This document shows, piece after piece, positions 34,514-58,341 of a stretch of 64,000 nucleotides of DNA. The notes beneath the pieces are model-generated. The model made no database searches. It saw only the letters and a program-made list of their open reading frames with translations, and was not told where the DNA came from. The translations under genes were made by a program, and so were the position numbers. The stretch comes from an uncultured Pelagibacteraceae bacterium (GTDB lineage Bacteria > Pseudomonadota > Alphaproteobacteria > Pelagibacterales > Pelagibacteraceae): the NCBI GenBank assembly GCA_902631255.1, contig CACOXS010000002.1, positions 56,622-120,621 of the forward strand. Direction: 5' to 3'. Position 1 is the stretch's first letter. Every line of letters begins with the position of its first letter.

Positions 34514-35350
34514 TTAAAGATAGTTAAGTTCTTTCATTTCATCACCTAATTCTCTCTCCAAATTCTCCTTAACATTTTTATCTAAAAGTTTTTTCCAATC
34601 ATTTTTAATTCCCATATTGAAAAACTTTATATTTTCTCCGGTTTGTTTATTTTTCTTAGCCTCAACAAAATTCTCTTTTGACTCCAATTTTTGCATGTTT
34701 TCAAATACTGTTGTTTTAACAGTATTTTCAAATTTTTCTCTATCAAACGTGAATTTTGCACGGCCAAGATGTGTAATAAATTTCAAAATATTTAGAAAGG
34801 TTTTTTCTGTATCATTTATCAAATCCTCATATCTAACCAACAAATATTTATTAAATCTTCTGAAAACTTTCCAAGAATTGTAGTGATATTTCCATGAACC
34901 CAAGTAAGTTGTACAGTGTCTGTCATCTTTTTTTAAAACTTGGTGCGATAATAATGTCTCAAGAGATTCTTGTGGAGTTTTTTGAAAATGGTGTGAGTGA
35001 GAGGTAACAATATTTCTTGGGTCTCTTACTATATATATCACTCCGAGCGTATTGTGCCGATCTGTAAATTTAAATGTTTTGGTGTTCATGAAACAACTAT
35101 GTGTTTTTAAGAATCTAATAGAATTTTTTTTGTTAAAAATCTTTTGAGTATTGATGTAATTTTTGTACATTTCTTCATCATTGTTAGTATCAACACCTAT
35201 GTGTTTAAATAATGAATTATCCGGAAACTGCTTGATATTTTTTAATAATTCAAAATTAAATACACCATCTTTGGAAAATATATATGATGATAACAAAGAT
35301 CTTACGAAAGTATTTCCACTTTTTGGATATGATGCCAACCAAACTATCAT
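34514..35350 (-). CDS. Sulfotransferase-domain protein
   Basis: MIVWLASYPKSGNTFVRSLL (PAPS 5'-phosphosulfate loop), YIVRDPRNIVTSHSHH (3'-phosphate motif). Confidence 0.88.
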   Translation of the reverse strand: MIVWLASYPKSGNTFVRSLLSSYIFSKDGVFNFELLKNIKQFPDNSLFKHIGVDTNNDEEMYKNYINTQKIFNKKNSIRFLKTHSCFMNTKTFKFTDRHNTLGVIYIVRDPRNIVTSHSHHFQKTPQESLETLLSHQVLKKDDRHCTTYLGSWKYHYNSWKVFRRFNKYLLVRYEDLINDTEKTFLNILKFITHLGRAKFTFDREKFENTVKTTVFENMQKLESKENFVEAKKNKQTGENIKFFNMGIKNDWKKLLDKNVKENLERELGDEMKELNYL

Positions 35351-39305: not shown

Positions 39306-39886
39306 TCGTAATTGCTTAAGTATTGTTTTATTTTTTTAATTGGTAAACCCATAATAGTATCTTCGTCACCTTCTATATTTAAGAATAACTTCCTTCCTTC
39401 TCCTTCAATTTGGTAAACATTATAAGCATATAGGGCTTCATCTGTAACGTTTGATAAATAACTTTTAAGCTCATCTAGACTAAGTTGTTTCATAGTTAAA
39501 GTTGCTTTATCAGTGTAATTCCAAATCATGACACCATTTTGAGAAATACAAACTGAACTTATAAGATTGTGTTTTTTTCCATTAAGCTTTTTTAAAATTT
39601 CTAAAGCTTGATCTCTATTTATAGGTTTAGATATTAATTCGCCTTCTAAATCTATTACGCTATCAGCGCCTATAACTAAAAAACCCTGGTTTTTTTGACT
39701 AACCTTGTTTGCTTTCAATTCAGCTAAATTTTTTGATATTAATTCGGGAGATGCTTTTTCTTTAATTAAACTTTCTTTGACAATATCTTCATCTAAATTA
39801 GAATTTTTTACCTCGGTGGATATATTGTTATTATCCAAAATTTGCTTTCTTACTTTGCTTTTTGAGGCAAGTATAATTTTAACCAT
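39302..39886 (-). CDS. maf: Maf family nucleotide pyrophosphatase
   Basis: IILASKSKVRKQIL, LVIGADSVIDL, EGDEDTIMGLP. Confidence 0.93.
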   Translation of the reverse strand: MVKIILASKSKVRKQILDNNNISTEVKNSNLDEDIVKESLIKEKASPELISKNLAELKANKVSQKNQGFLVIGADSVIDLEGELISKPINRDQALEILKKLNGKKHNLISSVCISQNGVMIWNYTDKATLTMKQLSLDELKSYLSNVTDEALYAYNVYQIEGEGRKLFLNIEGDEDTIMGLPIKKIKQYLSNYE

Positions 39887-40703
39887 TTTTTTTATATATT
39901 TCGTATATCTTTATGATTGATGCAGCAGTTTCCTCGACTGATTTTCTAGTAACATCTATCATCGGCCACTTATATTTTTTAAAAGTTTTTTTAGCATCCT
40001 CAACTTCTTTTTTAATTTTAGATAAATCTGTATAAGATCTATTATGAGTTTCTTTTAATGAATTCATTCGATTTTTTCTAATATCAACTAACCTTTCTGC
40101 TTCTGTGCTCAATCCAACAATACAAGTAAAGTTTGGGTCTTCTTTTAAAATTTCAGGAATAGAATTTTCATTTACTAGGGGAATATTGGATATTTTAAAT
40201 CCCTTGTTTGCAAGATAAATTGAAGTTGGTGTTTTACTCGTTCTACTGACCCCTAGCAAAATAATATCTGATTTTTTGATATCTTTGACCAAATTACCAT
40301 CATCATGATTCATTGTAAATTGAATAGCCTCAATTCTTTTGTAATACTCATCATTTAACATGTATTGGCCACTAGGCTGGTGGGATGCTTTCTGGTTAAG
40401 TAGTTTTGAAAAACTCAAAATTAAATCTCCAAGAACACCAAAGCAAGGTATTTTTTTTTCTTCGCTGTTTCTTGCAAGGTGTTTTGCAAGACTGCTATCC
40501 ACGATTGAATATAAAATAATAGAGTTTTGATTTTCTTGAGCATTCGATAAAATTTTTAAAATTTGGTTTTCTGTTCTCGTAAATGAATACGTGTGTATTT
40601 TGTAATTTATATTTTTAAATTGGGCTTTAATTGCAGTAAAAATTCTATCTAACGTTTCACCTGTAGAATCAGATATAAGATAAATTTGATAAGTATTACT
40701 CAT
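39879..40703 (-). CDS. ppsR: Pyruvate,phosphate dikinase/PEP synthase regulatory protein (DUF299)
   Basis: IYLISDSTGETLDRIF, ILLGVSRTSKTPTSIYLANKG. Confidence 0.93.
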   Translation of the reverse strand: MSNTYQIYLISDSTGETLDRIFTAIKAQFKNINYKIHTYSFTRTENQILKILSNAQENQNSIILYSIVDSSLAKHLARNSEEKKIPCFGVLGDLILSFSKLLNQKASHQPSGQYMLNDEYYKRIEAIQFTMNHDDGNLVKDIKKSDIILLGVSRTSKTPTSIYLANKGFKISNIPLVNENSIPEILKEDPNFTCIVGLSTEAERLVDIRKNRMNSLKETHNRSYTDLSKIKKEVEDAKKTFKKYKWPMIDVTRKSVEETAASIIKIYEIYKKNG

Positions 40704-40984
40704 GTATAAAATGTTAATAGTTTTTTTTTATTTGAACAAAATTAATAATTTTTATAAATTTTAAATTTATGTTGTAAAACATGGCTTTTATTAACATTAT
40801 TAAACATCTGTATAAAGTTTTTCATTAAATTGAAATATTGGTAATAAGCTTCAATATTACTTATATTTATATAAAAAATTTAACTTAAAATGTTAATAAC
40901 TAGCTTATAAAATGTATATAAAATTTAATCCACATATTTCACAGTTCATACTACAAATACTATTAAATAAATTTTAATACTAAT
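40704..40984. other. Candidate chromosomal replication origin (oriC)
   Basis: 281-bp very AT-rich gap between ppsR and hemE, the Caulobacter/Rickettsia origin position; near-consensus DnaA box TAATCCACA at 40926-40934; repeated TATAAAATGT and AAAATGTTAATA; gene orientation diverges from here. Confidence 0.7.
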
Positions 40985-41986
40985 ATGTCTGATATTAAAA
41001 AAGTAATTAAAGATAAAAGAACAGATTTAAATCCTATATGGATTATGAGACAGGCTGGAAGGTATTTACCGGAATTTAGAGAAATAAGAAAAAAAAATAC
41101 TGATTTTATCAAATTATGTTTAAATTCTAGTTTAGCAGCTGAAATAACACTGCAACCTCTAAAAAGGTTTAATTTAGATGCAGCTATAATTTTTTCGGAT
41201 ATATTAATCTTACCATATGGTTTAAAGCAACAAGTAGAATTTAAAAAGAATGTTGGCCCCATTCTTGGTGATTTTAACATTGATCAAATATCTAAAATTA
41301 CAGAAAATGATTTTATCAAAAGAGTTGATCCTGTTTATAAAGCTATAAACCTGGTTAAAAATAATAAATTAACAGAAAACAAGTCCACCATAGGTTTTGT
41401 TGGCGCTCCTTGGACATTGTTGGTTTATATTTTGAATAAACAATCCCCAAAAATAAAACTTAAGAAAAACTTTTTTAATAATAACTCTTTAATTGAACAA
41501 ACATTAAAAATAATATTTAAATTTTTAAAAGTTCATATTAAAAACCAAATCAATAATGGCGCAGAAATAATACAAATTTTTGATAGTTGGGCTGGATTAT
41601 TAGAAGACAAAGATCTTGATTTTTATATTTATAATCCAACTTGCTCTTTAGTTGAATTTACTAAATCTTTAAATGTTCCGGTAATTTGTTTTCCTCGGGG
41701 TATAAAGAATTACAAAAAATATTGTGAAATTGTTAAACCTGACGCTATCTGTATAGATTACGAGGTTGACCCAATAAAAATTGAAAAAGAAATTGATATT
41801 CCTGTGCAAGGTGGCTTGAACCCCAAAATTTTGCTCACTGGCAGAGAAAATCTTAAAAAAGAAACAATAAAATATCTAGATATTTTTAAAGACCATCCAT
41901 ATATATTTAATCTAGGCCACGGGGTCCTACCAGAAACAGACCCAATCATGATGGATTATTTAGTTAAAACAGTAAAGAACTATTAA
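40985..41986 (+). CDS. hemE: Uroporphyrinogen decarboxylase
   Basis: PIWIMRQAGRYLPEFRE, FVGAPWTLLVYI, NLGHGVLPETDP. Confidence 0.97.
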   Translation: MSDIKKVIKDKRTDLNPIWIMRQAGRYLPEFREIRKKNTDFIKLCLNSSLAAEITLQPLKRFNLDAAIIFSDILILPYGLKQQVEFKKNVGPILGDFNIDQISKITENDFIKRVDPVYKAINLVKNNKLTENKSTIGFVGAPWTLLVYILNKQSPKIKLKKNFFNNNSLIEQTLKIIFKFLKVHIKNQINNGAEIIQIFDSWAGLLEDKDLDFYIYNPTCSLVEFTKSLNVPVICFPRGIKNYKKYCEIVKPDAICIDYEVDPIKIEKEIDIPVQGGLNPKILLTGRENLKKETIKYLDIFKDHPYIFNLGHGVLPETDPIMMDYLVKTVKNY

Positions 41987-48038: not shown

Positions 48039-48682
48039 TGGATTCGATAATTTCTAAAAATTACTCTCAAATACAAAAATTCAATGTTTCACGTGAAACT
48101 TGTAATGATTTTGAAAGCCTAATAGGCATGATACAAGAGAAAAATAGAGAAATTAACATAATTAGCCAAAAAACTTCTGAAAAAGAGGCTATTAGAGAAA
48201 GACATATTATTGATTCTGTGCAAATAATTGATTTTATTGATTTAAACAGTAATACAACCTCTGATTTAGGATCTGGAGGTGGAATGCCTGGATTAATAAT
48301 AGCAATCTTAATGAAGAGATTAAAAAAAAGCATGAAAATTAAACTTTTTGAAAAAAGTTATCATAAATGTGTCTTTTTAAAAGAAGTCTCAAAAAAATTA
48401 AAATTGAATACAGAAATAATACAAAAAGATATTTTTAAAATTAAAAATATTGAAACTGGAACTATTATGTCTAGAGCCTTTAAACCCATGCCTATAATTC
48501 TTGATCTTATACAAAAAAATTTTGGGAAATATAAAAATATAATTTTATTTATGGGTAAAAGTGGAAGAAAAATTTTAAATGATACGCTTGAAATTTGGAA
48601 TTTGGATTATGAGGAAAAAAAAAGTTTAACAAGTAAAGACTCGTTTTTGTTAAATATAAAAAACATGGAAAAAAAAATTTAA
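48038..48682 (+). CDS. rsmG: 16S rRNA m7G527 methyltransferase
   Basis: FNVSRETCNDFESL, RHIIDSVQI, DLGSGGGMPGLIIAI. Confidence 0.95.
   Translation: MDSIISKNYSQIQKFNVSRETCNDFESLIGMIQEKNREINIISQKTSEKEAIRERHIIDSVQIIDFIDLNSNTTSDLGSGGGMPGLIIAILMKRLKKSMKIKLFEKSYHKCVFLKEVSKKLKLNTEIIQKDIFKIKNIETGTIMSRAFKPMPIILDLIQKNFGKYKNIILFMGKSGRKILNDTLEIWNLDYEEKKSLTSKDSFLLNIKNMEKKI
48085..48100. promoter_or_regulatory. parS centromere site
   Basis: tgtttcacgtgaaact: palindromic core GTTTCACGTGAAAC exact, 15/16 to TGTTTCACGTGAAACA; 0.6 kb upstream of parA. Confidence 0.95.
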
Positions 48683-57271: not shown

Positions 57272-57774
57272 TTTATTTGAATTTTTGTTTTTTTATTAAT
57301 TAATTTTAACATTATCAAAAAATCTTTTTTTTGTATCCCTATACACCCTGCAGTAGGCTTATAGTTATTTGTTAAATGAATAAAGATACAACTGCCTTTA
57401 AATTTAATAGGTCTTAAATAATTATATTTTATCGGTATTATTAAATCGTATTTGTGATCTTTCCTATAAAGTTTTTCACATTTAACCTTTTTTTTTAAAG
57501 TAATTAGTTTATTGTAATTTTTTTGATTTAACGGATCATCGCACCAACCCATTTGTTTTTTAATTTTAATACATCTTAGTTTTGTTAAAGGTTTTTTAAT
57601 TCTATCTGATCTGTAATATAAGTTTTCAATAGAAAAACGACCAATTGGTGTTTTTTTATCACCTTCTCTCTTGTTTCTACTTAAACCGTTTTTACCAATG
57701 CAACATTTAAAATAAAAATCATCAATTTTTAGTGAGTGTTTATTTTTGATATAATTTATCATATTATATTTCAT
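57268..57774 (-). CDS. L,D-transpeptidase (YkuD) family protein
   Basis: GDKKTPIGRFSIENLYYR, CIFIHLTNNYKPTAGCIGI; start ambiguous (57786, 57774 or 57762). Confidence 0.82.
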   Translation of the reverse strand: MKYNMINYIKNKHSLKIDDFYFKCCIGKNGLSRNKREGDKKTPIGRFSIENLYYRSDRIKKPLTKLRCIKIKKQMGWCDDPLNQKNYNKLITLKKKVKCEKLYRKDHKYDLIIPIKYNYLRPIKFKGSCIFIHLTNNYKPTAGCIGIQKKDFLIMLKLINKKTKIQIN

Positions 57775-58341
57775 ATGAATTCGCATAACCTTGTAATTTA
57801 TGAATTTGATGAATTATATAAGATTTTTGAAGAAATTAAAAAAGATATAAATTTTGATTTTGAAAGAATTAATAAACAGGAATTGTTTAATTTAAATCTT
57901 AAATCAAATTGTCTAATACTAACAAAAAAAGAAATATCAGGATTAAAAAATCAAATAGTTTTTGAAAGTTTCCCGATTTCAATTTTTAAATTACTAGAAA
58001 AAATCAATATTGAATTTATTAAAAAAAATTTTCATGAGCAATCTGAGATTTTGATTGGAAAGTATAGGTTTAACATAAATTCGCGTAAAATGTATTTTAG
58101 GGAAAATGAATTGAAACTAACGGAAAAAGAAATTAGTTCAATTATATACCTTTTCAAAGCTGCGAGGCCTATTAGAATTCAAGAGTTGCAATCAGAAGTT
58201 TGGGGATATCAATCTCAACTAGAAACTCATACAGTCGAAACTCATATTTATAGATTGAGAAAAAAAATTTATAAAGTTTTTAAAGATGAAAATTTTATTT
58301 TAAGTAAAAAAAATGGTTACGAAATTAAAAAAAAAGAATAA
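57775..58341 (+). CDS. OmpR/PhoB-type winged-helix regulator with divergent N-terminal domain
   Basis: C-terminal ELKLTEKEISSIIYLFKAARPIRIQELQSEVWGYQSQLETHTVETHIYRLRKKI. Confidence 0.85.
   Translation: MNSHNLVIYEFDELYKIFEEIKKDINFDFERINKQELFNLNLKSNCLILTKKEISGLKNQIVFESFPISIFKLLEKINIEFIKKNFHEQSEILIGKYRFNINSRKMYFRENELKLTEKEISSIIYLFKAARPIRIQELQSEVWGYQSQLETHTVETHIYRLRKKIYKVFKDENFILSKKNGYEIKKKE

Follow-up and report, generated by a model that had tools for sequence, protein, structure and literature searches.

The 64,000-nucleotide stretch analysed here (the window; contig C2 of a draft genome of 719 kb in 33 contigs, 57% complete) has its nearest relatives among single-cell genomes of Pelagibacteraceae (SAR11, Pelagibacterales), and it raises the question of where this group, among the most abundant marine bacterial groups, starts to replicate its chromosome. 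In the literature searched there was no paper mapping a SAR11 origin, and prediction databases (DoriC, for instance) may already list the spacer considered here. The original prediction placed a probable oriC in the gap between ppsR and hemE. Taken as a whole, the evidence is best explained if this gap, at positions 40704–40984, is the SAR11 chromosomal oriC, which it very probably is.

The ppsR–hemE spacer and its conservation

The spacer and its flanking genes were delimited as follows:
39879–40703, minus strand: ppsR (DUF299/COG1806), left flank; NF003742, 304 bits against a cut-off of 225
40704–40984, no strand: candidate oriC, the divergent ppsR–hemE spacer, marked by conservation, skew and box cluster
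40985–41986, plus strand: hemE, right flank; TIGR01464, 308 bits against a cut-off of 303

As predicted, the spacer was 281 bp long and the largest gap in the window (the next-longest listed gap has 202 bp), and it was among the most AT-rich gaps, with 85.4% A+T against 70.8% in the window; two much shorter gaps were richer. The predicted order of genes, with ppsR–maf–aroE–coaE–dnaQ transcribed leftward and hemE–hemH–hemJ–rho–mnmE–mnmG–rsmG–parAB rightward, was likewise found, and family models backed the names of ppsR and hemE. Elsewhere in the window, an ORF at 34514–35350 that adjoins an HslU-like gene has a sulfotransferase-type look (it starts MIVWLASYPKSGNTFVRSLL).

Retrieval by HemE gave 61 SAR11 loci, 55 of which had a usable ppsR-to-hemE spacer, besides the window's own, and the divergent gene pair was kept in all 55. 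Spacer length in the usable loci and in additional genomes of the order was 255–291 bp, mostly 281–284 bp. Among 30 other Alphaproteobacteria carrying ppsR, hemE was divergent beside it in 28, at a distance of approximately 331–899 bp, which places the SAR11 spacer below all 28. The suggestion of a minimal origin thus held for length and failed for the number of DnaA sites, as described below. There was no match to ppsR in 12 genomes of the second family of the order, and no relative of the HemE query in viral contigs. HemE of the second family (L133–L137; G010, G012, G002, G001, G007) was itself divergent.

Mean identity of the spacer in 18 close genomes was 93%, compared with 66% and 69% at four-fold degenerate sites of hemE and ppsR, respectively, and a 20-mer at 40784–40803 showed zero variation in this clade. 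A further conserved element was located in the middle of the spacer:
40841–40872, no strand: conserved block GTAATAAGCTTCAATATTACTTATATTTATAT / GTAATAAGCTTCAATATTACTTATAT, 96–99% identity over most of it in the close clade

This block may be a promoter, a bending site or a weak DnaA site. The inverted-repeat words that had been pointed out, AATATTG at 40834 and CAATATT at 40852, were present and were kept only within the window's own clade; they were rejected as a structural element because of their absence outside it.

DnaA-box-like sites, the trio-like run and regulatory inputs

The original prediction recognized one near-consensus DnaA box, TAATCCACA at 40926, and direct repeats TATAAAATGT (40705 and 40906) and AAAATGTTAATA (40708 and 40887), all of which were found in place, and it described DnaA boxes as sparse. 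That description was wrong: the repeats, which contain the 9-mer TTATTAACA or CTATTAACA, are themselves variants of the DnaA box, and nowhere in the 64 kb window are such words denser than in the spacer. The following sites were identified:
40712–40720, minus strand: site A, DnaA-box-like, CTATTAACA; a fixed site, with TTATAAACA, CTATTAACA or TTATTAACA in relatives
40788–40796, plus strand: site B, DnaA-box-like, TTATTAACA; within the invariant 20-mer
40839–40847, minus strand: site M, weak DnaA-box-like, TTATTACCA; TTATTCACA or CTATTAACA in some relatives
40891–40899, minus strand: site C, DnaA-box-like, TTATTAACA
40902–40910, minus strand: site C2, weak DnaA-box-like, TTATAAGCT; TTATAAACT or TTATTAACA in relatives; 11 bp from C
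40926–40934, plus strand: box D, upstream DnaA box of a candidate basal unwinding system (BUS), TAATCCACA; one mismatch to TTATCCACA
40935–40943, plus strand: box E, downstream DnaA box of the BUS, TATTTCACA; TTATTCACA in most SAR11
40948–40965, plus strand: DnaA-trio-like run ATA-CTA-CAA-ATA-CTA-TTA; 4 nt after box E and 13 bp after D

Words of the form YTAYHMACR numbered 2.95 per SAR11 spacer versus 0.28 in dinucleotide shuffles, and sat at fixed positions and in fixed orientations across SAR11 spacers. One position alternated among TTATTAACA, TTATCAACA, TTATTCACA and TTATAAACA in relatives, and many relatives had TTATTAACA, TTATCAACA or TTATTCACA at the position of site B. Box words were most densely clustered in the spacer not only in the window but also in four of five sampled genomes (G140, G032, G139 and G021, within the stretches sampled), the exception being G048 with few box matches; since the pattern was framed after the data had been seen, these ranks are supportive and do not amount to a blind test. 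D was the only box of the window spacer within one mismatch of TTATCCACA, and half of the close clade had either D or E off consensus. When the SAR11 spelling TTATNMACA is used, the spacer contains several DnaA boxes, as expected of a hemE-type origin. SAR11 DnaA retains the elements RRSR...RPRQ and SLPEIG...RDHTT, which we take to be the base-contact elements seen in E. coli DnaA. Their retention suggests that SAR11 DnaA may tolerate weaker boxes with an unchanged reading head.

At the hemE edge of nearly all SAR11 spacers, two adjoining 9-mers were followed by four bases and then a series of NTA triplets; the window's version consists of TAATCCACA, TATTTCACA, GTTC and the trio-like run to 40965. 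Most SAR11 had a good downstream box (TTATTCACA) and a weak upstream one, whereas the reverse was found in the window's clade. Some other Alphaproteobacteria showed TTATCCACA followed by CTAC-rich trios between ppsR and hemE. Relative to the TTATNCACA strand, the SAR11 trios follow the boxes on the 3' side, as they do in B. subtilis and E. coli. In the BUS, tandem DnaA boxes are followed after about 4 bp by DnaA-trios with a middle adenine conserved on the complementary strand, the spacing reported most often between the better box and the first trio is 13 bp, and the published rule asks for a DnaA box (at most 2 mismatches) with three or more consecutive NAN trios no farther than 16 bp away (PMC8287927). 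Starting 13 bp after TAATCCACA, the window has ATA-CTA (two NTN), the off-pattern CAA, and ATA-CTA-TTA (three NTN); strictly read, its three-trio run starts 22 bp past D and 13 bp past E, which has 3 mismatches. Because CAA breaks the NTN pattern, the window copy is borderline under the strict three-trio rule. Many relatives conform to that rule, with an unbroken run of at least three trios after TTATTCACA and 4 nt. Anchoring took whichever trio phase scored best downstream, and NTN triplets are frequent where DNA is AT-rich; the evidence therefore lies in conservation across clades, not in the pattern.

The original prediction reported no TTAA-N7-TTAA motif for CtrA. One does occur, at 40963–40977; it is the sole match in the spacer and was not conserved in relatives. 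No protein passed the CtrA family cut-off in nine SAR11 genomes, and one of 14 control genomes had such a protein; the model was built for Rhodobacterales, so that absence of CtrA from SAR11 is probable and not proven. Control by CtrA was rejected on these grounds, with neither a gene over the cut-off nor conserved sites. The spacer contained no match to the strict IHF consensus WATCARNNNNTTR and no GANTC; a CcrM homologue has been reported for SAR11 (PMC3973325). Given this apparent absence of CtrA, and with neither its sites conserved nor a strict IHF site present, initiation in SAR11 appears to be free of the CtrA gating seen in Caulobacter. The OmpR-type regulators of SAR11 resembled PhoB, two other regulators and one receiver-less protein. 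The ORF at 57736–58341 encodes an OmpR-type DNA-binding domain without a recognizable receiver domain, and in those complete SAR11 genomes that were tested, homologues of its product were encoded 17–28 kb away from the origin.

The spacer might be oriC and its TTATTAACA words nevertheless bind a protein other than DnaA, either CtrA-like or another repressor. The two differences between TTATTAACA and TTATCCACA, the half-site TTAAC, which is also part of CtrA sites, and the conserved response-regulator-like HTH protein encoded near the origin speak for such a protein. The same words, however, occupy the trio-adjacent position of BUS box E in other genera and are exchanged for TTATTCACA at fixed places; variation at site A is greatest at position 5, which corresponds to the N in the known box TTATNCACA; and no CtrA exceeded the family cut-off in the nine SAR11 genomes. 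We consider binding by another protein unlikely, although it is the strongest of the alternatives.

With the words assigned to DnaA, the best explanation of the computed location, conservation, box cluster and box–box–4 nt–trio layout is a mechanism in which DnaA would bind about seven TTATNMACA-type sites (A, B, M, C, C2 and the tandem D–E) and would be loaded rightwards from D–E onto the trio-like run at 40948–40965. The duplex would then open at this run, immediately ahead of the hemE start codon, helicases would be loaded there, and the neighbouring parS and parAB would segregate the new origins. A more specific proposal, which we advance tentatively and rate somewhat below an even chance, is that this is a streamlined hemE-type origin that has shed its CtrA, IHF and CcrM inputs, and that its DnaA, with the known base-contacting residues unchanged, recognizes a relaxed box TTATNMACA. 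If this proposal is true, initiation would be set by DnaA alone.

Chromosome-scale position of the spacer

Because the window's own genome is so incomplete a draft, GC skew was taken from relatives, using 19–20 stretches of 20 kb, about 30% of each genome, from five complete SAR11 genomes; GC skew partly tracks gene orientation. In G140 (1,308,759 bp), the cumulative minimum fell at the stretch boundary 335,000/335,001, with the ppsR–hemE spacer at approximately 335.5–335.7 kb, and the maximum at approximately 0.97–1.0 Mb, near the point opposite the minimum. In a two-arm fit, the inflection coincided with the spacer (offset 0.00) in three of the four same-genus genomes, G140, G139 and G048; in the fourth, G032, skew was diffuse and the best fit lay 132 kb off the spacer. 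Skew, proposed as a genome-wide check on the original prediction, thus agreed with it on the sampled stretches of three of the four same-genus genomes. The cumulative GC skew of the window itself also bottomed out at the spacer.

A putative partitioning site was found to the right of hemE:
48085–48100, plus strand: parS-like site TGTTTCACGTGAAACT, in the 5' part of rsmG

This palindrome has one mismatch and lies directly ahead of parAB. In every complete SAR11 genome checked, the parS core was confined to one location, 7–10 kb from hemE in the window's genus, so that parS is close to both parAB and the candidate origin, as in a ParABS system.

The genus g6 (G020, G021; L130, L131, L198) separates the spacer from hemE. 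Its sole HemE match was distant (approximately 30% identical) and far from ppsR, and in G021 ppsR faces rho, with hemE-hemH-hemJ absent there; hemE was probably lost and replaced in this genus. The skew inflection of G021 remained at ppsR, parS remained with ppsR in both G020 and G021, and the ppsR–rho spacer of G021 kept TTATAAACA words and the arrangement TTAACCCCA-TTATAAACA-TGAC-CTA-ATA. Since boxes, trio layout and skew stay at ppsR without hemE, the conserved elements belong to the origin and not to hemE regulation. This result bears on the view that the spacer is merely a divergent promoter region, conserved for the regulation of ppsR and hemE. A divergent spacer must house both promoters, and the block at 40841–40872 could be one of them; that view, however, is contradicted by the elements kept in G021 and leaves the skew, the distance to parS and the top-ranking box cluster unexplained, and we regard it as very improbable.

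An origin at dnaA, as in many other bacteria, is the least probable alternative and hardly credible: dnaA lies 60–72 kb from the spacer, at a near-constant distance in all complete genomes tested, and the diffuse skew of G032 takes in dnaA, but skew fits favoured the spacer over dnaA in G140, G139, G048 and (at ppsR) G021, the G032 stretch with dnaA had no leading box cluster, and parS adjoins the spacer. At 60–72 kb from dnaA, the candidate origin is not dnaA-linked. The assignment of the spacer as a probable oriC is therefore supported by skew, parS, conservation, the box cluster and the retention of these elements at ppsR without hemE.

Comparison with known origins

The spacer represents a compact version of the hemE-type origin already known; its new features are the spelling of the boxes, the conserved box–trio module, the constant length and the absence of a CtrA input. 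A fixed origin of approximately 280 bp with an anchored parS offers a defined starting point for estimating growth rates from metagenome coverage, and a small, apparently CtrA-free alphaproteobacterial origin is a test case for how initiation is set by DnaA boxes and trios alone.

Between hemE and COG1806, the origin of Caulobacter crescentus carries five DnaA boxes and five CtrA sites together with a single IHF site, and CtrA sites are not universal in hemE-type origins, some members being without them (PMC1914354). The original prediction likened the arrangement to Caulobacter Cori and the Rickettsia hemE origin, and the same flanking genes were indeed found. Like Cori, the SAR11 spacer lies between hemE and COG1806 (ppsR), is AT-rich and has several DnaA boxes (PMC1914354); unlike Cori, it is 281 bp long, its boxes are mostly TTATNAACA, and SAR11 has no conserved CtrA, strict IHF or GANTC site in the spacer and no CtrA gene over the cut-off. 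The origin of Rickettsia prowazekii shares the hemE–COG1806 flanks and an AT-rich genome, but the Rickettsia origin is described as exceeding 400 bp and has reported CtrA sites (PMC1914354), compared with 255–291 bp and no conserved CtrA sites in SAR11. With the Bacillus subtilis-type BUS, the SAR11 module shares tandem boxes, a gap of about 4 nt, a trio-like run, and a distance of 13 bp between the better box and the first triplet (PMC8287927). It differs in that the downstream box is mostly better than the upstream one, the trios are mixtures of ATA and CTA, and the layout adjoins hemE and not dnaA.
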